Positions 25,432 through 39,355 of a DNA stretch of 39,355 nucleotides are shown here, piece after piece (the first letter of the stretch is position 1; each line of letters starts with the position of its first letter). This DNA is from Cyclobacteriaceae bacterium (GTDB taxonomy: Bacteria > Bacteroidota > Bacteroidia > Cytophagales > Cyclobacteriaceae). The notes under the pieces are model-generated. The model ran no database searches. It saw only the letters and a list, made by a program, of their open reading frames with translations, and had not been told where the DNA came from. Where the stretch lies: positions 1-39,355 of the forward strand of contig JABXHZ010000196.1 of NCBI GenBank assembly GCA_013373335.1. The letters run 5' to 3'. Both the position numbers and the translations under genes were made by a program.

Positions 25432-28400
25432 ATGTTAAAAGAAATTGGTGATATCCATTCCCTAAAGCTGCTTTATGAAAGCAATCGAAGCAAACTCTTC
25501 ACAGCAAGTAATGAAGAGGGTGAAAATATATTGATTAAAGAGGACCTGACAGGTGATTTGGGACGGTTGCATAATGAAGCGATGATCGCCAATCGCTCAT
25601 CCCATGCTGGTTTTAATCCTCAAGTAATTCTTTACAATAGTCGGGTAGTGATGGTTCGGGAATTTTTGAAAGGAAAATCCCTAAATGAAATCATTGAAAA
25701 AAAGCCTCTACCGATCGAAAGCTTTATTCATTTTGCAATAAAAATTTGCCATCAATTACAGGATATTCATAGTAGTGGAACCCTCCACAACGACCTCAAC
25801 CCCAGGAATATCATCATTGATGAGGAAATAGATTCCTGCCGATTAATTGACTTCGAATTTGGGACATCCATTCAAAATTTAGAATTACAATTTGAACCGC
25901 TCAGCACCATATCTGGCACCATCGAGTACATTTCTCCGGAACAAACAGGGAGAATGAATAGAAAGCTCGATCAGCGAAGTGACTATTATTCCCTGGGTGC
26001 TACCTTCTATGAAATGCTAACCGGACAGCCTCCTTTCGAGGGCGAAGATGTTTTAGCAATCATTCATTGCCATTTGGCAATTCAGCCGATTCCTCCTAGA
26101 AAGCTGAATCCAAACGTCCCTAAGTTTTTAGACAAAGTTGTTCTAAAGCTTCTGGCAAAAAATGCGGAGGAACGTTATCAATCTATTCCTGGACTTTTAG
26201 CGGATTTGAATCTTTGTGAGCATCAGCTGAAAAAGAATGGCACAATTCAGGATGGAGAACCGGGTCTGACAGACATCGCCTCCAAGCTTCATATTAGTCA
26301 GCATCTTTATGGACGAGATAATGAAGTAAGTATTTTAAAAGCCCGCTTTGCAGATGCTTGTCTTGGCAGAAAAATACTGATGACGATTGGAGGGTATAGT
26401 GGAGTTGGAAAAAGTGTCCTTTGTCAAGAACTCTACAAGGAAGTATCTGTGCAAAACGGTCTATTCCTATCCGGAGCCTTTGATGTCCTGGATCGACAGA
26501 CACCTTATTTGGCCTTTATCAAGGCATTCCGACAGTTTGCGGATTGGTTAATGGCCGAGTCACAAGAAGTACAGCAATACTGGGCTAAAAAACTAAATCG
26601 AGACTTAAAGGGACTAGGCCAAATTATTGTGGATATGGCGCCTAAACTGCGTTTCATTCTTCCTCCACAGCCTGAATTAGTAAGCCTAACGGGATTTGAA
26701 AATCAACAGAGGATCCAGTTTACCATCAATGCTTTCCTTCAAAGCCTTGCTTCGGAAGACACCCCGTTGGTTCTGTTTCTCGATGATTATCAATGGGCCA
26801 ATGATGCTTCTATCGAATTGCTAAAAAGTCTCTTCAATAATTACAATTTGACCCATTTGATGGTTTTGGTAGCCTATCGGGATAATGAAACTCCAGAATT
26901 CCACCCTTTTTCCCAAGCCATCCGAACGATCAAATCCAATAATCTCGATGAAAGCCACCTTCTGATTGAAGAAATTCATTTACAGCCTTTGAGTGAGCGG
27001 CATGTTGGGATTTTGATTTCAGACACCCTTAAACTCGAATCACTCGAAGTCGCGGAATTAGCTGAGTTGATTTACTCCAAAACCAAAGGAAATCCGTTTT
27101 CAATCAATAAGTTTTTGGAGTCTTTATACAAAAACAAGCTGCTTGAGTTTGATTATACCAAAAACAAATGGACCTGGAGTATCAAAAAAATCCAGTCTCA
27201 GAATTTAAGTGATGACATTGTAGAATTACTTCTTCTTCGAATTCGTGAGCTACCTGAAAATGCACTACAGGTCATCAAGGCTGCTTCAGTATTCGGGATA
27301 GAATTTTCTCTGCATCAATTATCCATTATTACCGGTAAACCTACAACTGAGATTCATTCTTTCCTTTGGCCATTGATCCAGGAAGGATCTTTAATTCCAA
27401 TGGGAAATGATTATAAATTTATTCCTGAATTCTACAGCGAAACAAATCGGGATATTCATTTTCGTTTTGCCCATGCAAGAATTCAACAAGCCGTTTATGC
27501 CCTGTTGGAGTCTTCAGAAAAATCACTCTTTCACTTTGAGGTTGGACAAATCTATCTGCAAAAATTAAATGAGCAAGAGATAGCCGAAAGGCCTATTGAA
27601 ATCGCCCTTCATTATTCTTTGGGCTATGATGAAATTTCACGATCAAGCAACAAGGAAGAGATTGGATGGCTACTCCTCAAAGCAGGAAAGAAATCTGCAG
27701 AATCCGCCTCATTTGAAGGTGCTTTGACTTTCACCGAAATCGCATTTGAGCTTCTTGGTGATAAGCTGAAGAAATCTGAAAAATTTCAACTGCTACTAGA
27801 AGGATTAGAATACTCCTATCTGTTGAAGGATACCGAAAAGCAGGAAAAATTTGAAAAATTAGCCTTCGGAGAGGCTGAAACACTAATCGACCGTGTACTG
27901 GTCAACGAAGTCATTGTCCGGTGCTTAGGCTTTGCCAACCTACCAAAAAAGGCAGTGGATATCGCCCAAAAAGCATTGTTAGAAGTTGGAATCCATATTC
28001 CTGAAAAAGCGAGCAAATTACAGGTCATGTATCATGCGATCATGATTCAAGTGTTGATCCCCCGAAAGAAACTGCTCACAATCAAGGATATTCCAGAGAC
28101 TAACGATCCCTTAGCCCTGGCAACATTTAAGCTATTGCTAGCTGCACTTTCATCTTACTTTTTCGTCAACATTTCTACCTATCCCATTTTGATTTTTCAA
28201 ATGCTTAAACTGACGATAAAGAAGGGAATGGCTCCAGAATCGGTTGTAGGAATTGCTTCTTATGGATTGATCTTGACAACTGCCCTTAAAAAACCGGCAG
28301 ATGGTTATGAAGTAGTAAATAATTCCTTGGAATTATTGAATAAGCCGGATCGAATGAAGTATGCCGCCACCATCAATATGATGTATGTGTCGTTTACCTC

Positions 28401-30570
28401 CCACATCAAAAACAATATTGTGGATAGTATCCCGCTTACCTATGAAGGATACTTGAAAGGATTGGAATATGGAAACATGGAGTATGCCTGCTGGAATTTA
28501 TTTTTCAGTACGGCTATCAAATTTCATGTAGGAAATGATTATAAAGCGCAACTTGAAGAGGCTATAGAAACCGAAAAGTTTTCCATTCAATATAATTTTT
28601 CAAATCAAGCAGCGATCACCCAAGTAATTGAAAAGTGCTTGGCAGTACACCTTGCTGATGAAAAAGACCTTGAAAGCGAATTGAAAAATCTTCCTAAAAA
28701 ATTGGAAGAGAATTTCAGAACTGCCGAAAAAGAATCCAATCATATCTACCTCCTATCCTACTATGGATACATAGGAGCTACTCACCTGTTTTTCGGGAAA
28801 TACAGTGAAGCATTTGAGTATTATGAACATTTCCCCCTTCATATCAAGGACCAACCCAACTCATTTTTCATTAATTATTACAAAATAAACCGAGCTATCA
28901 ATGCAGTCTTTTTGATGAATCAAATCCGCGATGAAAAATTCCGAGGAGTCAATTTGAAAGATATTATTAATGAAACAATCTCGGAACTTAAATACCTATC
29001 CAAATTAAATCCGGTTTCTTATGGTCCCTACATGTCATTGTTAAGGGCCGGAATGAACTATCAAACAAATCAAGAATTGGATGTCCAATTGATGGAAAAC
29101 AGTATTACCCAACTGAAAGATCTACATCATCCAAGATATTACATCCTATTTGCAGAATTACTAAGCGTCCTTTTCAAATATGAGAAAAATCCCCGACACG
29201 AATATTGGAGAAATCAAGCCGCTTCAGAGGCAAGAAGAATAGGTGTAGAAGCAAAATCGATCCGATTGCTTCAAGAAGAAGATGAGGGAAATATTCAAGC
29301 TACTGAAAAGGAGAAAATTAAAAGAGGTTCTGTTTCTTCCAGTGAGATTGGACAAATCGACACAAAAACCTTGGTTAAAACCATGGAAGCTTTGGTGAGC
29401 GAAATAAAGTTAGAGGCGCTGCTTGAAAAACTCATTACCTATGCCATGGAAAATACAGGCGCCCAAGAAGGACATTTTCTTATCAACCGAGAAGGAAAAT
29501 GGATTTTGGAGGTTTCAACCATAGCTAATCACCAGTTACATACCCATTTCCCAAAGGTAGAACTTGAAAAAACAGAAGAGGTCAGCGCAGCAATCATCAA
29601 TTATTCCAAAGCAAGCAAAGAACCTCTGCTAATCGAAGATGCCTTGCTTTCCCAGCCTTTCGATACCGATCCCATCGTTCGGGAGAAATCACTTCGATCT
29701 GTTTTGTGTATTCCGTTTATTAACCAGTCAAAGATTTCAGGGATCATTTATCTCACACATTCCCTCAATAAAAGCGCCTTTTCAAAGGAACAGATCTCCC
29801 TTATGCGATTAATGGCAGCTCAAATCGGCGGCGTGATTGAAAATGCCCTTCTTTATGAAAACATGGAGCGATTAGTTGCAGAAAGAACTAGAGAGTTAGA
29901 AGAGGAAAAGCAAAAAAGCGACTCCCTATTGCTCAATATTCTTCCTAAAGAGATTGCTTCTGAGTTGATTCAAAAAGGAAAAGCATCTGCCAGACTTCAT
30001 GAGAAGGTTTCGGTAATGTTTGTTGATATCAAGGATTTTACAAGGATTGCTCAGCGTATGAACCCAGATGAATTGGTTCAAAATCTTCAAGTCTTCTTTA
30101 CTAAGTTTGATGAAATCATGGACAAGTATGGCATCGAAAAGATAAAAACCATTGGGGATGCATATATGGCTGCAGGTGGAATCCCAAGTCCTTCAGAAGA
30201 CCACGCTTATAAAATCACAGAGGCAGCTCGGGAAATACTTTGTTTTTCTGATGAATTCAATAAGAAAAGCGCTTTGGAAAACAAGCCTATTTTCAATGTT
30301 AGAATAGGAATTCACATTGGACCGGTGGTTGCCGGAGTAGTCGGTCATCGTAAGTTTGCCTACGATATTTGGGGAGATACGGTAAACATTGCTTCCCGAA
30401 TGGAAAGTAATTCAGAAACTGGAAAAATCAATGTTTCTGAAGATTTCTATAAAACCATCAAGGATAAATACAGCTGCGAATTCCGAGGTGAAATAGACGT
30501 AAAAAATAAAGGGATGATGAATATGTACTTTATTCACCACCCCAAAAATCCTGAGCATGTAGAAACTTAA
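25432..30570 (+). CDS. multidomain signalling protein: Ser/Thr kinase - AAA ATPase - helical repeats - GAF - adenylyl cyclase
   Basis: A 1712-residue cytoplasmic protein. Residues about 8-265 form a protein kinase domain with Lys36, Glu49 and catalytic loop HNDLNPRN (119-126, Asp121). DFG is changed to DFEFG (Asp140 kept), there is no glycine-rich loop, and ISPEQTGRMNR follows. About 290-600 is an AAA/NACHT-like ATPase with Walker A GGYSGVGKS (320-328) and Walker B LVLFLDD (446-452). About 620-1290 is helical, TPR-like. A GAF domain is at about 1310-1475, a coiled coil (LVAERTRELEEEK) near 1480-1505, and a class III cyclase at about 1525-1700. The cyclase has both metal Asp (1532, 1576), Lys1572 and Asp1645 (the adenine-selecting pair) and Asn1652/Arg1656, so it should make cAMP as a homodimer. 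The architecture follows the giant STK-AAA-GAF-histidine kinase sensors, with cyclase output instead. Zero-gap coupling to the carotenoid oxygenase gene upstream suggests a shared pathway. Confidence 0.9.
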   Translation: MLKEIGDIHSLKLLYESNRSKLFTASNEEGENILIKEDLTGDLGRLHNEAMIANRSSHAGFNPQVILYNSRVVMVREFLKGKSLNEIIEKKPLPIESFIHFAIKICHQLQDIHSSGTLHNDLNPRNIIIDEEIDSCRLIDFEFGTSIQNLELQFEPLSTISGTIEYISPEQTGRMNRKLDQRSDYYSLGATFYEMLTGQPPFEGEDVLAIIHCHLAIQPIPPRKLNPNVPKFLDKVVLKLLAKNAEERYQSIPGLLADLNLCEHQLKKNGTIQDGEPGLTDIASKLHISQHLYGRDNEVSILKARFADACLGRKILMTIGGYSGVGKSVLCQELYKEVSVQNGLFLSGAFDVLDRQTPYLAFIKAFRQFADWLMAESQEVQQYWAKKLNRDLKGLGQIIVDMAPKLRFILPPQPELVSLTGFENQQRIQFTINAFLQSLASEDTPLVLFLDDYQWANDASIELLKSLFNNYNLTHLMVLVAYRDNETPEFHPFSQAIRTIKSNNLDESHLLIEEIHLQPLSERHVGILISDTLKLESLEVAELAELIYSKTKGNPFSINKFLESLYKNKLLEFDYTKNKWTWSIKKIQSQNLSDDIVELLLLRIRELPENALQVIKAASVFGIEFSLHQLSIITGKPTTEIHSFLWPLIQEGSLIPMGNDYKFIPEFYSETNRDIHFRFAHARIQQAVYALLESSEKSLFHFEVGQIYLQKLNEQEIAERPIEIALHYSLGYDEISRSSNKEEIGWLLLKAGKKSAESASFEGALTFTEIAFELLGDKLKKSEKFQLLLEGLEYSYLLKDTEKQEKFEKLAFGEAETLIDRVLVNEVIVRCLGFANLPKKAVDIAQKALLEVGIHIPEKASKLQVMYHAIMIQVLIPRKKLLTIKDIPETNDPLALATFKLLLAALSSYFFVNISTYPILIFQMLKLTIKKGMAPESVVGIASYGLILTTALKKPADGYEVVNNSLELLNKPDRMKYAATINMMYVSFTSHIKNNIVDSIPLTYEGYLKGLEYGNMEYACWNLFFSTAIKFHVGNDYKAQLEEAIETEKFSIQYNFSNQAAITQVIEKCLAVHLADEKDLESELKNLPKKLEENFRTAEKESNHIYLLSYYGYIGATHLFFGKYSEAFEYYEHFPLHIKDQPNSFFINYYKINRAINAVFLMNQIRDEKFRGVNLKDIINETISELKYLSKLNPVSYGPYMSLLRAGMNYQTNQELDVQLMENSITQLKDLHHPRYYILFAELLSVLFKYEKNPRHEYWRNQAASEARRIGVEAKSIRLLQEEDEGNIQATEKEKIKRGSVSSSEIGQIDTKTLVKTMEALVSEIKLEALLEKLITYAMENTGAQEGHFLINREGKWILEVSTIANHQLHTHFPKVELEKTEEVSAAIINYSKASKEPLLIEDALLSQPFDTDPIVREKSLRSVLCIPFINQSKISGIIYLTHSLNKSAFSKEQISLMRLMAAQIGGVIENALLYENMERLVAERTRELEEEKQKSDSLLLNILPKEIASELIQKGKASARLHEKVSVMFVDIKDFTRIAQRMNPDELVQNLQVFFTKFDEIMDKYGIEKIKTIGDAYMAAGGIPSPSEDHAYKITEAAREILCFSDEFNKKSALENKPIFNVRIGIHIGPVVAGVVGHRKFAYDIWGDTVNIASRMESNSETGKINVSEDFYKTIKDKYSCEFRGEIDVKNKGMMNMYFIHHPKNPEHVET

Positions 30571-32507: not shown

Positions 32508-33725
32508 TCAGGCAATCAATTCTGTTTTTATCAAAATATCTTCTTCTAGCGTTCTATGAACCGGGCATCGATTGGCAATTTCAAGGAGCCGTTGCCGCTG
32601 AGCAGGGTCTAAGTCCCCTTCCAGAGAAATTCTACGGGTAAACTGACTTACCTTCGATTCGGATTTGTGAGAATGTTCGGAATCTTCTCTGTGGACTCGC
32701 TCATGATTTAAGTAAACAGTTACTTCCTTCAATAGCCATTTCTTTCTCTCTGAATACATTTTTAAAGTCATAGCCGTACAACTTCCCAAGGAAGCCATCA
32801 AAAAGTCATAAGGTGTAGGACCCAAATTCTTACCCCCTACCTCAATCGGTTCATCCCCAATCAAGTGATGATGGGGAGTTTTAATTTCAGTAGTGTAGCC
32901 ATCTCCAGCACTAAGCCGAACCATCACTGGATGGCCCTTTGTTTCATTTTCTTTCTTTGGACTAGCGGGAACATAGCGATTACTCCAAGAAGCAACCAAT
33001 TGCCCAATATAAACTGCATCCGAATCTTTGGAAATCAAATGATCAGCCCCATCCAATGATACAAAGCTTTTGGGATGAAAAGCTGCCTCATAAATCTTTT
33101 GGGCATTCTCTATGTCTACAACCTGATCTTGTGGCGAATGTAAAATTAAGAGAGATTTTTTTAGCCTCTTCAGCAAAATCTTCAGAGGTTCTTTTTCCAA
33201 ATCTTCAACAAAATCATTACCCACGAAAAAAGGTTTCCCCCCAATGGAAACCGGGGTTTTCCCCTCTGGAGTTGTTTCTTTTGACTCTTTTGAAGAAAGG
33301 ACTTGAATATGAGCAGGGTCTGCAGGGGCACCTATGGTTACCAAGGCAGCCACGGAAGGAATCCTAGCTGCAGCGTGCAAAATTGCCGTACCCCCTACGG
33401 AATGTCCTAATAGTAATCTGGGAAATTCATAATTTTCTCCCAAAAACCCCGCAGCATCAATTAAATCCGAAATATTTGAAGTGAATTCTGTATCTGAACC
33501 TTCCCCCTCCTGAGACTTTAAACCTGTAAAATCAAAACTTAATACAGCAATTCCTTCATTAGACAAGGCTCTTGAAATGATACTAATTGCAGAAAAATTC
33601 TTCGAACAGGTAAAGCAATGGGCGAAAATGGCAAAAAATAATGGCTGACTATCTAATGGATGGTACAAATAGCCCTTAAGGTTAACACCCTTGCGATTTT
33701 TAAAAATAATTTCTTTTGGATCCAT
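32508..33725 (-). CDS. alpha/beta hydrolase - OsmC fusion protein
   Basis: A 405-residue cytoplasmic two-domain protein of a known fusion type. Residues about 1-250 are a serine hydrolase with nucleophile Ser109 (LLGHSVGGT), Asp200 (HSPQDQVVD) and His229 (GADHLI). Residues about 265-405 are an OsmC/Ohr-like domain with the redox Cys pair Cys316 (LGSCTAMT) and Cys387 (ANRCPVHRTLEE). OsmC domains reduce organic peroxides by a thiol mechanism; the hydrolase half may release or handle fatty-acyl hydroperoxides. This coupling is inference. It starts 5 bp after the stop of the DUF6503-like lipoprotein gene and so appears to be the last gene of the glycan operon. Confidence 0.9.
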   Translation of the reverse strand: MDPKEIIFKNRKGVNLKGYLYHPLDSQPLFFAIFAHCFTCSKNFSAISIISRALSNEGIAVLSFDFTGLKSQEGEGSDTEFTSNISDLIDAAGFLGENYEFPRLLLGHSVGGTAILHAAARIPSVAALVTIGAPADPAHIQVLSSKESKETTPEGKTPVSIGGKPFFVGNDFVEDLEKEPLKILLKRLKKSLLILHSPQDQVVDIENAQKIYEAAFHPKSFVSLDGADHLISKDSDAVYIGQLVASWSNRYVPASPKKENETKGHPVMVRLSAGDGYTTEIKTPHHHLIGDEPIEVGGKNLGPTPYDFLMASLGSCTAMTLKMYSERKKWLLKEVTVYLNHERVHREDSEHSHKSESKVSQFTRRISLEGDLDPAQRQRLLEIANRCPVHRTLEEDILIKTELIA

Positions 33726-33730
33726 TTAGG

Positions 33731-34471
33731 CTAATTTACCATCTCTACTTGAATGTTTTCCAAATTGATTTCTGACAATAATTCAAGCTCCCCTTTTTCA
33801 AAGAGTTCCTGCATTTTTTCAACAGGCGTGTTTTTATCCTCAGGTTTATAATTCAAATAATTCTGAAAACGAATACCCTGAACTGTCTGAGCTGAACTTA
33901 CTTCTCGAAAACGAATACCTCCACCATCTGTATGATAACTGTAGGCCATAAAATCCACAAAAAATGTTTCTGAATGTATCCAATAAAGGAACTCATCGTC
34001 AAAATCATCCCCTCCTCCCTCTTTCTGAAAAGTTACTTTGATCAAATGATAAGGCTCTCCTTTTAATTCTGTCTCTCCCAAATAATTTTTGATAACCGCC
34101 GCATCATTCAAACCATAAGGTAAAAGAGCAAAATAGGCCACTGAATTGACTGATCTAGAAAAAGCTCCAATTCGCTCTTCTGTCAAAGTATCTATAGGGG
34201 TCCCGTTTACTGTTCGCAAAAAGCCATCGTTATTAAGTACATCTCGTACGAGCCCTGTTGAATCCGAAAATTCACGGGAATACTCAAAGCGATTTGGACT
34301 TTTGAAAATTTGGTAGTGGAAATCCCTGAAGTCAAAATCGATCCTTGCAGACTCATAGCGCTTTCCCCCATGGGCTTCGATAGCTTTGTCTACAATTTTT
34401 TCAGCTTCTGTTCTGGGCGAACAAGCAATTAGAAAACCCAAAAAAAGAAATATTAAGACATTGATTTTCAT
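33731..34471 (-). CDS. DUF6503-like lipoprotein
   Basis: A 246-residue lipoprotein: MKINVLIFLFLGFLIAC with lipobox LIAC, mature from Cys17. The N-terminal EAEKIVDKAIEAHGGKRYESARIDF pattern (Ala-Ile-Glu-Ala-His-Gly-Gly core) and a mostly beta remainder resemble DUF6503/LolA-LolB-like proteins of Bacteroidota, of unknown role. It is a clear paralogue of the C-terminal 247 residues of the gene just upstream: same length, same lipobox position, same AIEAHGG core. Translation is coupled to that gene by an ATGA overlap (34468-34471). It may bind or carry a lipid or glycolipid across the periplasm, but this is only a guess from the fold type. Confidence 0.75.
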   Translation of the reverse strand: MKINVLIFLFLGFLIACSPRTEAEKIVDKAIEAHGGKRYESARIDFDFRDFHYQIFKSPNRFEYSREFSDSTGLVRDVLNNDGFLRTVNGTPIDTLTEERIGAFSRSVNSVAYFALLPYGLNDAAVIKNYLGETELKGEPYHLIKVTFQKEGGGDDFDDEFLYWIHSETFFVDFMAYSYHTDGGGIRFREVSSAQTVQGIRFQNYLNYKPEDKNTPVEKMQELFEKGELELLSEINLENIQVEMVN

Positions 34472-35211
34472 TTGTTTACAAATTTAAATTCAAAGTTATC
34501 ATAGAGATAATCAGCTCTCAAATATAGTTTTTCTCCCGCTTCATTGATGCGATAGCTTTTTCTGATTCTATAAAATGTAAAGGGCGTAACTTGGTTAAAA
34601 TCAATATTTTCAACCAGGCTCCTATGGTCACTTAATTGGACCTCATTTCCCATCATACGTTTGGAAATGGGATCAAAATAATACCACCAAATATCATTTC
34701 CCTCTCCATACTCCACTCGAACAACCTCCGCTTCTCCTATTGGGGTTTTCTGAATTCCTTCCGAAACAAAAACAGAACCCTCTTCTTCCATCAGTTTCCA
34801 GGGTTGGGCAAAGGCATAGTAGGCTGCATCAAAATCCTTTTTCTTGGAGGCCAGAAAATCAGGGTTTTCTATTCCATTTCCGGCTATGGAATAATGGGTT
34901 TTACCTTTTGAAAAAGAAAGTACATGCTCCACCGAGTCTTGAATCCAGAAAATCTTTCCAGAAAATTCAGGTTTAAAAGAAAACTGAATCTTTTGATCCG
35001 TTTCTTTTTCAACTGAACCGTCTTCCTTCAACAATTGAGTCCATTTTCTAAATGATATAAATTCTAAATTATCCCAGTTTTCCTGTCCTCCATGTGCTTC
35101 AATAGCCTCTTTTATGATTCTCCGTGCTTCCCTTTGTTCCTTGGGTTCACAACCCCAAGAAATCAATACCACCAGTACCAATAAACCTTCGAGGAGTTTT
35201 TTGAAATACAT
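34468..35211 (-). other. internal in-frame lipoprotein unit within the GT-C fusion
   Basis: From ATG 35211 the frame encodes 247 residues starting with a textbook lipoprotein signal (positive MYFKK start, hydrophobic LLEGLLVLVVLIS, lipobox ISWGC). Length and layout match the 246-residue paralogue immediately downstream. It could be produced by internal initiation, or be released by signal peptidase II cleavage before the Cys if the segment inserts N-in. Which one happens cannot be seen from sequence. Confidence 0.55.
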
Positions 35212-36573
35212 ACTTTCAGATAATTTTTCTTTGAAGATAGGGAAGTAATCCCAAGCTAAGGCAATCCCAAGTATTCCATATTCCAAGAATAGCCAGGCTG
35301 GACTTTCTTCAACAGGTATTTTTCCATAAGCCTGATACGAAAAGATCAATGAAAAACTCCAGGCAATTGCAGAAATTCGATTGACAAAAAGGCTCAAGCC
35401 CAAAACCGGCAAAATATACCAAGGATGGACTACGGGCTGAAATAAAAAATAGATTAGGTAAACCCCTACCCAAAGATCAATCAAAGGAATCAAGCGCTGG
35501 GGCTTGAGTTTTAAAGTCGTGAAAAGAATAATTATAAATGTGACTCCACCCAAGATCTTGGTCAAATAGTAAATGGTATTATATCCCTCTATCCAATAAC
35601 CTATTTCCCTACCCAAATAATAGATGGAAGCGTTAAATTCGAATTTTCCCTGATAAAGCTGGAGTGTCTGGATAAAATTCCCCCAAGCATCCTCCCAAAT
35701 CAAAGGCAAAAACGAAATACTGATTGCTAAGATTACCCCAATCCAGAAAAAGGCATGAGCCCGAGTTCTCCTAAACAAAAATAAAGACGGAAGTAAAATC
35801 AAAGGGAGTAATTTGGTACTTACAGCCAACCCCCAAAAAGACCCGGAGAGAAACTTTTTATGGCGAGTTAAAGCCCATATACAAGCAAGAAGAAAAAACA
35901 AAACCAACCCTTCAAAATGAAGATTTCCTACAATTTCCTGGATCACGAAAGGATTTAGCCAATAGAGAATAATTTTTCCCGCTGGTATTGCCAGATGTCT
36001 GAAAATCCTCAAAAACAATAAAAATACACCTACCTCTATCCCAATTAAAATGAGTCTTAGCAGGAAAATACCCCTATCTAATTCACCAATTGAGAAAAAA
36101 GATGCGGTCGCAAATAACAATTGATTTAACGGAGGATAAACGGAGAAATAATCAGGAGAATTAAGTAAAGGAATAGTTTTTTCAAAAAACCTAGTAGAAT
36201 CCTCAAATCCCTCCTGACGCATCCACTGATGGGGGGTATATTCATAAGGATTCTCTCCAGAAAGTACCACTTCCCCATCCCAAAGGAAACGGACATAATC
36301 CTCTGACCAAAGTGGAGTTGAATGGATTAATAGAGTCCGAATAAAAAGGCCGAGTATAAAAACACCTAACCAATTTTTTAGTCCTCTCCACTGCCAAAAT
36401 AACCCCAGCATTGCCAGGAAACTGAGAAGATAGACTAGAAAAATGAACTGAAAGTCCTCTCGAGGGAAATGATATCCTAAAAGATAATTCCCACCAATCA
36501 GTAGAAAAATAAAAACACCAACCAGAATATGATTATGCTTTTCTTTCACAAGCCTAGTTGCTTTCGGAGCCAT
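34468..36573 (-). CDS. GT-C mannosyltransferase-like protein fused to a DUF6503-like lipoprotein
   Basis: A 701-residue protein. Residues 1-454 are a polytopic membrane GT-C glycosyltransferase with about a dozen helices. The first loop carries LWSEDYVRFLWDGEVVLSGE NPY (acidic pair after helix 1-2), as in polyprenyl-phosphomannose-dependent mannosyltransferases. From residue 455 comes a complete lipoprotein precursor: MYFKKLLEGLLVLVVLISWGC, then REARRIIKEAIEAHGG and a beta-rich domain like the next gene's. Either this is a true fusion or a lost stop codon, and an internal ATG at 35211 could make the lipoprotein on its own. The start overlaps the upstream lipoprotein gene by 28 bp. It probably adds sugar from a polyprenyl-phosphate donor made by the GT2 gene upstream (37447-38145). 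Confidence 0.8.
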   Translation of the reverse strand: MAPKATRLVKEKHNHILVGVFIFLLIGGNYLLGYHFPREDFQFIFLVYLLSFLAMLGLFWQWRGLKNWLGVFILGLFIRTLLIHSTPLWSEDYVRFLWDGEVVLSGENPYEYTPHQWMRQEGFEDSTRFFEKTIPLLNSPDYFSVYPPLNQLLFATASFFSIGELDRGIFLLRLILIGIEVGVFLLFLRIFRHLAIPAGKIILYWLNPFVIQEIVGNLHFEGLVLFFLLACIWALTRHKKFLSGSFWGLAVSTKLLPLILLPSLFLFRRTRAHAFFWIGVILAISISFLPLIWEDAWGNFIQTLQLYQGKFEFNASIYYLGREIGYWIEGYNTIYYLTKILGGVTFIIILFTTLKLKPQRLIPLIDLWVGVYLIYFLFQPVVHPWYILPVLGLSLFVNRISAIAWSFSLIFSYQAYGKIPVEESPAWLFLEYGILGIALAWDYFPIFKEKLSESMYFKKLLEGLLVLVVLISWGCEPKEQREARRIIKEAIEAHGGQENWDNLEFISFRKWTQLLKEDGSVEKETDQKIQFSFKPEFSGKIFWIQDSVEHVLSFSKGKTHYSIAGNGIENPDFLASKKKDFDAAYYAFAQPWKLMEEEGSVFVSEGIQKTPIGEAEVVRVEYGEGNDIWWYYFDPISKRMMGNEVQLSDHRSLVENIDFNQVTPFTFYRIRKSYRINEAGEKLYLRADYLYDNFEFKFVNK

Positions 36574-37433
36574 TCATCTTCTACTCCATTTTTGGTCCAA
36601 TAGTCGATCAGCATTTTTTCCTTTCGAATAGCAAGAGACCGTTCTTCTCGACCACTTGGCGATATACGTATCTCTTCCCAACTCACAATCTCAAAGGGAA
36701 AAGTTTTAATAAATTGAATCTTTACCGTACGGTTCAATTCAGGGTATTCAATTACAAATTGATTGGTCTGCTGACCCAATTCTTCTAAGCTTATTTCTGC
36801 CCGATAGGCTTTGAAGGGGATATGAGCAAATCGTTGAAAAGTTAAAGATGGAATTAAGCGAATATTACCTTTTGGCACCAATTCCGGATTCAACCGTATT
36901 AAATTAAAAATCTCATCTTCAGAAGAGGCATCCACTTTAAGCTCTTGGTCTCCTTCCGACTCAAAGTAAGAAAAGAGTTTTGCCTGATACGCTGCATTTT
37001 TCCAATTCAATTGAGCAAAAGTTTGGCCGCACCATTCCGAAACAGAGTGAGTGATTTTAAATGCAGGAACATCATCCTGGACTGGAGTAAATACCGACAG
37101 CATGGTATGGTAGGGATAAATCCCTGTCTCGAAATCCCTTGTCATATTAAGCTTGAGGACTTTTCTTGCATCTCCTCCAGCACTTTCCGGATCATCTAAT
37201 TTAACCTGCTTTCTTCTGGAAAAATCTTCAGTAACAAAAATCATTACCGTTTTTCCTTCCCGCTCTTCTCCGTACCGACTCTGCTTCAGGTCAAAGACAT
37301 TAATCTCTGCTTTTCCTTGATACCAATAAGCCCCGAATTGCTCTTCATCAATGATTTCTCGGCTTTTAGGACCACAAGCCGTAAAAAAAACGAATAACAA
37401 AAAGGCCGATAAGGCAAACCACGTAGATTTCAT
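36546..37433 (-). CDS. conserved lipoprotein of unknown function
   Basis: A 295-residue lipoprotein: MKSTWFALSAFLLFVFFTAC with lipobox FTAC, mature from Cys20. The rest is soluble: FGAYWYQGKAEINVFDLKQSRYGE near the start, AGGDARKVLKLNMTRDFETGIYPYHTMLSVFTP, and SVSEWCGQTFAQLNWKNAAYQAKLFSYFESE in the middle. Homologous Bacteroidota proteins exist, and some carry loose cell-division-style names that I cannot support. I see no catalytic motif. The gene sits between the polyprenyl-phosphate sugar synthase (13 bp upstream) and the GT-C gene (28-bp overlap), so it probably serves the same envelope-glycan pathway. Confidence 0.75.
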   Translation of the reverse strand: MKSTWFALSAFLLFVFFTACGPKSREIIDEEQFGAYWYQGKAEINVFDLKQSRYGEEREGKTVMIFVTEDFSRRKQVKLDDPESAGGDARKVLKLNMTRDFETGIYPYHTMLSVFTPVQDDVPAFKITHSVSEWCGQTFAQLNWKNAAYQAKLFSYFESEGDQELKVDASSEDEIFNLIRLNPELVPKGNIRLIPSLTFQRFAHIPFKAYRAEISLEELGQQTNQFVIEYPELNRTVKIQFIKTFPFEIVSWEEIRISPSGREERSLAIRKEKMLIDYWTKNGVEDEWLRKQLGL

Positions 37434-37446
37434 AAATCAAAGTGCT

Positions 37447-38145
37447 TCAGGCTTTCCAATATTTAAAAATGGTCAAAATTATTTTATATCCTGCACCAAT
37501 TACTCCTTTTACCGTTCCACTCACCTTGGATACTCCAATGCGCTTTCGATAGGATACGGGTACTTCAAGGTATCTCAATCCCCTTTGATGAGCCTTGATC
37601 TGCATTTCAATAGTCCAACCATAATTTTCATCCCTCATTTCCAATTCGAGTAGCTTTTTCCAAAGGATAGCACGAAAAGGCCCTAAATCAGAATAATGAG
37701 CTCCCTGAATCCATCTCATCAAAGTCGTTGCAAGCCAATTTCCAAAAACCTGGGGCAAAGTCATGGAGCCTCTTTCTCGATTTCCCATAGCTCTTGACCC
37801 TATTACCATGTCAGCCTTCCCCTCTTCAATAGGCTTGATTAACAAGCCCATTTCTTCTGGATAATCACTAAAATCACCATCTAAAAATACCAATACGTCG
37901 GGTTGAACTTCTTGGCTTTTAATCCAATCCATGGCAGTAAGGCAGGCTTTCCCATAGCCCTTTTGCCCTTCGAAAACTACAATAGCACCTGATTTTTGAG
38001 CAACCTCTGCGGTTGAGTCCGTAGAATTATTATTGGCCACAACAATATGCCTCACCCAGCTAGGAATAGCCGAGATAACCTTCGGAATAGATTTTTCTTC
38101 ATTAAAAGCCGGGATGATTACATCCACTAGAAGTCCTGACGACAT
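37447..38145 (-). CDS. GT2 polyprenyl-phosphate sugar synthase (dolichol-phosphate-mannose-synthase-like)
   Basis: A 232-residue cytoplasmic-face glycosyltransferase of family 2. Motifs are VIIPAFNEEKSIPKVI (nucleotide binding), VVANNNSTDSTAEVA, VFLDGDFSDYPEEMG (the metal-binding DxD-type site), VIGSRAMGNRERGS and the DPM1-type SDLGPFRAI and YGWTIEMQIKAHQ. It has no C-terminal membrane helices, as in the soluble DPM1 type. It is expected to transfer hexose, likely mannose or glucose, from a nucleotide sugar to polyprenyl phosphate. A GT-C enzyme two genes downstream would use the product. Gaps of 5 bp and 13 bp to its neighbours show an operon. The sugar is not certain. Confidence 0.88.
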   Translation of the reverse strand: MSSGLLVDVIIPAFNEEKSIPKVISAIPSWVRHIVVANNNSTDSTAEVAQKSGAIVVFEGQKGYGKACLTAMDWIKSQEVQPDVLVFLDGDFSDYPEEMGLLIKPIEEGKADMVIGSRAMGNRERGSMTLPQVFGNWLATTLMRWIQGAHYSDLGPFRAILWKKLLELEMRDENYGWTIEMQIKAHQRGLRYLEVPVSYRKRIGVSKVSGTVKGVIGAGYKIILTIFKYWKA

Positions 38146-38150
38146 GAATT

Positions 38151-39355
38151 TTACTTTCCTAAACTATATGATCGAAATGAGGTGATAAACACCATCCCAT
38201 ACCCAAAGGCAAGCATAGCATGAAATGGTAAAAACAAAAAATATTCATAACGAAAAGCCAATATCACCATAAAGGTAAATATGAGAGAAAGCCCACCTTC
38301 GATCCAAGTTGTCAGAGGCATAGAAATCTTCAGGTAGCGATTTGTTTTAAGATTAGATTTACCGGCCTCTAGATTGAATTTGGGAGTTCGAATAAAAGGA
38401 GACTTCTTACCACTTAGTCCTTCCCATACTGCCTGTGCATTATGCAAAGCCATCCCCATGGAAACGGAAAGAAATAAGGGTAAAATCAAAATGGATTCCA
38501 ATAAACTGGCCCAAAAGCGTTTTCGTGAATAGAAGTGGGAAACAAAATACACCAATGCAATAATTGCAAAACCTATTAGGAACAGACCCGCAATTCTTGT
38601 CAAAGAAGTCGAAACCCCATTCAAACCCAACCAAGCCACCCCAATGCTTGAAAGGCTTACTGTAAGAATTACCAGGAAAATACTGCTATTGAATAAATGG
38701 GCTACAGCATGCATTTTGGTTTTAAAGGGAAAATTGGAAGCGAGGACAGATTGGGCATGTTTTCGAGCACATTCAGCGCCGCCCTTATTCCACCGGAACT
38801 GCTGTGATTTAATTGCTGACATAATGGGCGGAAGCTCGGCCGGGGAATGGATTTCTGGTTTATAGACAAACTTCCATCCCTTTTTTTGAGCCCGATAACT
38901 CAAATCCAAATCCTCAGTCAACGTATCATCCTCCCAATTCCCGGCATCAACAATACAAGTTTTTCTCCATACACCTCCGGTACCATTGAAATTTATAAAA
39001 GCTCCCAAAGTATTCCTTCCTACTTGTTCGATCGTAAAATGAGCGTCCAAAGCAAAAGCTTGAAGTCGCGTTAATAGGGAATGATTTTCATTCAAATGCG
39101 TCCATCGGGTCTGAACCATTCCAACACGATCATCTTGAAAATAGGGAATCGTTTTTTTCAAAAAATCGGGATTTGGAAGAAAATCCGCATCAAAAATGGC
39201 AACAAACTCTCCTTTGGCAACAACCAGCCCTTCACGAAGAGCCCCAGCTTTAAAGCCTTTTCGATTACTACGATGAAGGTAAACAAAGGGAAAGGCGGGA
39301 TATTGCTTTAGTTTTGCCTGAATCAAACCACTTGTTTCATCAGTGCTATCATCCA
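38151..39355 (-). CDS. cellulose-synthase-like GT2 membrane glycosyltransferase, 5' end cut by window
   Basis: The frame is open to the last base of the window and begins inside the GT-A domain at DDSTDETSGLIQAKL, so the Met start and first strand are missing; about 400 residues remain. The processive GT2 motifs are all present: the entering DDS, FDADFLPNPDFL, TLTEDLDLSYRAQKKGW (TED base) and QQFRWNKGGAE (QxxRW). Four or more membrane helices fill the C-terminal half. The family includes CslA-type beta-mannan and cellulose synthases. The TTG at 39324-39326 is not a true start. It is the first visible gene of an envelope-glycan operon running to 32508. The polymer made is unknown. Confidence 0.88.
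   Translation of the reverse strand, partial: DDSTDETSGLIQAKLKQYPAFPFVYLHRSNRKGFKAGALREGLVVAKGEFVAIFDADFLPNPDFLKKTIPYFQDDRVGMVQTRWTHLNENHSLLTRLQAFALDAHFTIEQVGRNTLGAFINFNGTGGVWRKTCIVDAGNWEDDTLTEDLDLSYRAQKKGWKFVYKPEIHSPAELPPIMSAIKSQQFRWNKGGAECARKHAQSVLASNFPFKTKMHAVAHLFNSSIFLVILTVSLSSIGVAWLGLNGVSTSLTRIAGLFLIGFAIIALVYFVSHFYSRKRFWASLLESILILPLFLSVSMGMALHNAQAVWEGLSGKKSPFIRTPKFNLEAGKSNLKTNRYLKISMPLTTWIEGGLSLIFTFMVILAFRYEYFLFLPFHAMLAFGYGMVFITSFRSYSLGK

Follow-up and report, generated by a model that had tools for sequence, protein, structure and literature searches.

A GT87-type glycosyltransferase fused in frame to a complete lipoprotein precursor in Algoriphagus and a second lineage: a candidate bacterial polyprotein

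The locus considered here raises the question of how a lipoprotein is made when its precursor forms the C-terminal end of a multi-pass membrane enzyme. The window (the whole stretch of DNA analysed, 39,355 nt of contig JABXHZ010000196.1 from a Cyclobacteriaceae genome, assembly GCA_013373335.1) carries an ORF of 701 codons with zero internal stops, in which residues 1-454 are a GT87-type membrane glycosyltransferase and residues 455-701 are a complete lipoprotein precursor in the same single frame (Table 1). The initial annotation described an in-frame fusion of a GT-C glycosyltransferase with a lipoprotein precursor whose signal opens at Met455, and offered stop-codon loss, internal initiation, or a natural polyprotein as explanations. 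The description is confirmed on both points; after Met455 come YFKK, a run of hydrophobic residues, and Cys475. The explanation that we narrowly consider probable is that this genuine fusion acts as a bacterial polyprotein, from which a LolA/LolB-like lipoprotein would be released by Lgt and signal peptidase II.

Table 1. Coordinates of the fused ORF, its parts, and neighbouring genes in the window.
Feature	Coordinates	Strand	Basis
Fused ORF, glycosyltransferase and lipoprotein precursor	34468..36573	-	701 aa, open frame without stop
GT-C/GT87 glycosyltransferase part, residues 1-454, polytopic	35212..36573	-	Pfam GT87; positive-inside charge pattern
Glu91-Asp92 acidic pair, first large periplasmic loop	36298..36303	-	Invariant in fused proteins
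Met455, ancestral lipoprotein start codon, now internal	35209..35211	-	Met in 8/8 fused proteins
Internal lipoprotein signal sequence, residues 455-474	35152..35211	-	pN/pS; M455 and K459 invariant
Cys475, predicted lipidation and cleavage site	35149..35151	-	Cys conserved; lipobox score
Mature lipoprotein domain, residues 475-701, LolA/LolB-like fold	34471..35151	-	AlphaFold, Foldseek
Next gene, DUF6503 lipoprotein, 246 aa	33731..34471	-	Pfam DUF6503, E 1e-36; ATGA overlap with fused ORF
Preceding gene, 295-aa lipoprotein-like protein, no assigned family	36546..37433	-	28-nt overlap with fused ORF
GT2 resembling polyprenyl/dolichyl-phosphate sugar synthases	37447..38145	-	Pfam Glycos_transf_2; best NCBIfam match AglJ, E 5e-36, below cut-off
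Processive-type GT2, runs off the window	38151..39353	-	Pfam; NCBIfam PgaC/CelA-like, below cut-off

The assembly of the window's genome is 85% complete and comprises 460 contigs, a state in which a missed stop codon or a frameshift error could have joined two genes, but the recurrence of the open frame elsewhere makes such an artefact extremely improbable. Within Algoriphagus, a genus of marine bacteria, matches were found in 74 of 76 genomes. Seven of these carry the fusion: the window, A. kandeliae, A. limi, A. marincola, A. marincola HL-49, A. formosus, and the MAG HF-Din22; those of A. limi, A. kandeliae, A. formosus, and A. marincola are isolates, and the fused Algoriphagus proteins are 58-83% identical to that of the window. 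A family-wide search of 397 genomes, with matches listed down to about 217 bits, gave at least one further fusion among the matches listed, an ORF of 679 codons in another genus (G137); the fusion was not found in seven other searched genomes of that genus. Sequencing error and a stop-codon loss peculiar to one strain are ruled out because seven Algoriphagus genomes, isolates included, and a separate second lineage carry the fusion; an evolutionary loss of the stop or frame boundary is supported instead. Separate genes with a stop codon in related genomes, named by the initial annotation as grounds for doubt, are the arrangement in 67 Algoriphagus genomes, where the two genes are nearly always adjacent, whereas the frame is uninterrupted in the six fused Algoriphagus relatives. 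Each fused genome gave a single match, so no second, spare copy of either part was found in them. Several other candidate fusions were rejected: three genomes (G033, G086, and G090) for which the open-frame column had suggested a fusion have several stops between the parts, and in G019/G075, G167, G211, and G150 both genes are in one frame with a stop in between.

A conserved ORF of polyprotein type with two origins emerges from a tree of 82 concatenated pairs (8 fused, 74 unfused), in which each of the two gains is forced by well-supported branches; according to this tree the fusion arose twice independently, in Algoriphagus and in G137. G019/G075 had appeared by score to be the nearest sisters and were rejected as such, the tree placing other unfused species closer. 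The unfused Algoriphagus pairs consist of orthologous parts in the same order but as two ORFs. The overlap is exactly 4 nt (ATGA) in 40 of the 74 unfused pairs, which puts the start of the downstream gene in another frame, and the pair gives two separate translation products; because the two co-operonic genes usually overlap in this way, they are probably translationally coupled. Overlaps of this type occur among the closest unfused relatives on the tree (L059, L004, and L005), and the fusion may have come from a small indel close to the 3' end of the first gene, shifting the reading so that it misses the stop and runs on in the frame of the second gene.

Other arrangements of the pair were also seen. 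Both genes share one frame in eight unfused pairs, and in five of these (L003, L036, L093, L094, and L095) they lie within 30 nt of each other; in L003, L036, and L093 one stop codon and 3-6 nt lie between the genes, arrangements that are one substitution short of fusion. In L101 (G311) a transposase-like stretch of about 1.5 kb parts the glycosyltransferase gene from the lipoprotein gene, which suggests that the pair was broken up by an insertion element. The two genes do not always stay adjacent, since in a further genome (G282:C16:327543-328253 and 333296-334585) about 5 kb separates the glycosyltransferase gene from the lipoprotein gene, whose product is 75% identical to the lipoprotein part of the G137 fusion.

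The window's enzyme is a member of GT87 (Pfam PF09594, E 6e-12, with a score of 46.2 bits where the cut-off is 25) and has an NCBIfam match to MptB that is below cut-off; MptB is polyprenyl-phosphomannose-dependent. For the G137 enzyme the matches are to both MptA and MptB, again below cut-off. Hydropathy and charge give a GT-C layout: there are many TM segments, and the first large loop on the periplasmic side holds an acidic pair, Glu91-Asp92. By analogy, these two residues are candidates for the acidic catalytic residues of GT-C enzymes. The position of this Glu-Asp pair in a large periplasmic loop is comparable to that of D58 of PimE (PMC12041525). Likeness to PimE and MptA/MptB thus covers the GT87 match, the polytopic form, and the acidic pair, and extends to the polyprenyl-phosphate sugar synthase-like gene in the neighbourhood of the fused ORF; this GT2 gene is a candidate donor maker for the glycosyltransferase. 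The window's enzyme differs in being joined to a lipoprotein, and we know of no enzyme of the PimE or MptA/MptB type that is so joined. The G137 ORF has the same genetic layout, being flanked by a DUF6503-like gene and by a lipoprotein-like gene whose 297-aa product, encoded upstream, resembles the window's 295-aa preceding protein.

The AlphaFold model of the whole chain (pLDDT 48) was rejected for the enzyme as too low in quality, so that topology was based on charge and hydropathy; the model of the lipoprotein domain alone was used. Charges over 82 homologues obey the positive-inside rule with the C-terminal tail in the cytoplasm, and the tail is net positive in 89% of unfused glycosyltransferases. 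The parity of the last TM segments requires residues 384-416 to form two helices, as they do in the low-confidence AlphaFold model. The tail of the fused enzyme (about residues 443-454) is predicted to be cytoplasmic, and the lipoprotein signal would therefore begin on the correct side of the membrane.

The signal from Met455 reads MYFKKLLEGLLVLVVLISWG-C475 and has the features of a lipoprotein precursor, namely a charged start, a hydrophobic core, and a lipobox Cys preceded by a small residue at -1; the full signal (charged start, core, and Cys) is retained in every fused protein. It begins at residue 455, and would be N-terminal only in a product that starts at Met455. The lipobox is not the "textbook" one that it was first taken to be, as SWGC has Ser at -3 and Trp at -2; F or W at -2 and S, A, or G at -1 are usual in Algoriphagus lipoboxes, and the score lies inside the range of ordinary A. 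limi lipoproteins (lipobox and start-context statistics were drawn from 800 kb of A. limi). Within the four-species group pN/pS is 0.52 for the signal vs 0.15 and 0.13 for the flanking domains, and among the seven fused Algoriphagus proteins only M455, K459, and C475 of the 21 signal residues are invariant, the other 18 varying. Position -1 is nevertheless G, S, or A in all seven, and the position of Cys475 is Cys in 8/8 fused proteins and in 71/71 scored unfused homologues. In a scan of 439 ORFs of at least 250 codons, taken from 800 kb of A. limi and the window (the A. limi orthologue lies outside the sampled stretches), the fused ORF was the sole one with a lipobox-like signal after at least two TM segments and none after it. 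LspA is encoded in the window's genome; Lgt was not found in that 85%-complete genome and is present in 6/6 fused relatives checked. Topology, selection, and lipobox scores favour an internal signal that is still working.

From Met455 to the end of the ORF there are 247 residues, and the mature domain from Cys475 has 227. The AlphaFold model of this domain (pLDDT 76) has RseB, LolA3, and the LolA/LolB superfamily as its best Foldseek matches; a LolA/LolB fold is thus indicated for the predicted model (Foldseek probability 1.0, E down to 1.6e-5), at TM-scores of at most about 0.5. The predicted mature domain has its best fold matches in the superfamily of LolA, LolB, RseB, and mycobacterial LprG; what separates the window's domain from LolA/LolB-like proteins is that TM-scores here are only about 0.5 and that it has no Pfam family match. 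The resemblance first noticed between the fused lipoprotein and the 246-residue lipoprotein encoded next holds for length and layout but not clearly for sequence, where homology is weak (hhalign probability 55% over 80 columns around an AIEAHGG motif). The window's domain is not matched by the DUF6503 profile, which finds one of the seven fused relatives at E 0.009. Because of this weak homology, the idea that the fused lipoprotein and the product of the next gene are close duplicates was dropped.

As there is no stop between the parts, translation that reaches the end of the glycosyltransferase should run on through the lipoprotein, and a fused chain is expected in any case. In the proposed mechanism the glycosyltransferase would insert first, its C-terminal tail staying in the cytoplasm, and the internal signal would enter the membrane as a further segment and send the lipoprotein domain to the periplasm; Lgt would then lipidate Cys475, and LspA (signal peptidase II) would cut before it. 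Signal peptidase II cleavage of the fused protein, which we infer from its sequence, would free the LolA/LolB-like lipoprotein, leave the enzyme with one extra C-terminal membrane segment, and yield the two in a 1:1 ratio. By analogy with GT-C enzymes that depend on polyprenyl-phosphate sugars, the acceptor to which the enzyme adds a sugar may be a glycolipid or glycan in the periplasm, and the glycosylated product may be handled or carried by the lipoprotein. Among the initial explanations the natural polyprotein is thus favoured, on topology and on the selective retention of the key residues of the signal; we are evenly divided over the fuller statement that this is a twice-evolved polyprotein in which signal peptidase II, acting at the internal lipobox after lipidation by Lgt, frees the lipoprotein from the C terminus of the glycosyltransferase.

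A fairly unlikely explanation, though one with several observations to its credit, is that translation also initiates at Met455, so that most of the lipoprotein is made as an ordinary precursor and the full-length chain is a by-product or second form. Met455 is invariant in the seven Algoriphagus proteins and is Met in G137 too, A is at -3 in 7/7 fused Algoriphagus genes, and 6/7 have no other ATG within 60 nt; an A at -3 promotes initiation in Flavobacterium johnsoniae (PMC6847099). By a start-context model built on 147 A. limi genes, which tells real starts from internal ATGs with an AUC of 0.94 on the data used to train it, the contexts in the window and A. kandeliae outscore 99% of comparable internal ATGs and 81-91% of real starts, and they exceed synonymous reshuffling (P 0.013 and P 0.006, respectively). 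Local RNA at Met455 in Algoriphagus is also more open than at most internal ATGs, but the tests are not mutually independent. A. limi and the marincola group show no excess over reshuffling (P 0.6-0.7), and HF-Din22 is borderline (P 0.09). G137 has a poor context: C occupies both -3 and -6, and the score exceeds that of only 8% of real starts, yet the signal and the Cys are kept. The start-like features may be relics of the ancestral start, and even if Met455 does serve as a start, ribosomes translating the glycosyltransferase should still produce the fused chain.

A further explanation is a tethered, bifunctional protein, in which the old signal would escape cleavage and act solely to anchor the lipoprotein domain in the membrane next to the glycosyltransferase. 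The topology allows such an anchor, and anchors too drift in sequence yet remain hydrophobic, as the signal has. An anchor has no need of Cys475 or of a small residue at -1, however, and both are kept while 18/21 positions vary; Lgt and LspA, moreover, occur in the lineage. We regard the tether as improbable.

The literature searched offers no precedent for processing at a lipobox that lies far within a multi-pass membrane protein. The closest known kind of polyprotein, by analogy, is probably FbcH of Bradyrhizobium japonicum, the cytochrome b-c1 polyprotein that is cut by signal peptidase I; in it, as here, one ORF encodes a polytopic membrane protein and then an exported protein that brings a full signal of its own into the interior of the chain, the parts being separate genes elsewhere. 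The present case differs in that a glycosyltransferase is paired with a LolA/LolB-like lipoprotein, that the cleavage is predicted, and that the internal signal is a lipoprotein signal, so that Lgt lipidation and signal peptidase II cutting would be required. If the predicted cleavage is true, lipoprotein processing is not confined to N-terminal signals; Lgt and LspA could excise lipoproteins from multi-pass membrane proteins, and pipelines that scan N termini alone for lipoprotein signals would miss such cases. It would likewise follow that an overlapping gene pair can become a polyprotein within a few steps, and that a glycosyltransferase and its partner lipoprotein are fixed at equal amounts. 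The two independent fused lineages, together with their unfused relatives, make the question directly testable.

Two further ORFs of the window may be mentioned. An alpha/beta hydrolase and an OsmC domain occur in a single ORF at 32508-33725 (minus strand), another fusion near the one described here, and a very long ORF of 1712 aa lies at 25432-30570 (plus strand).
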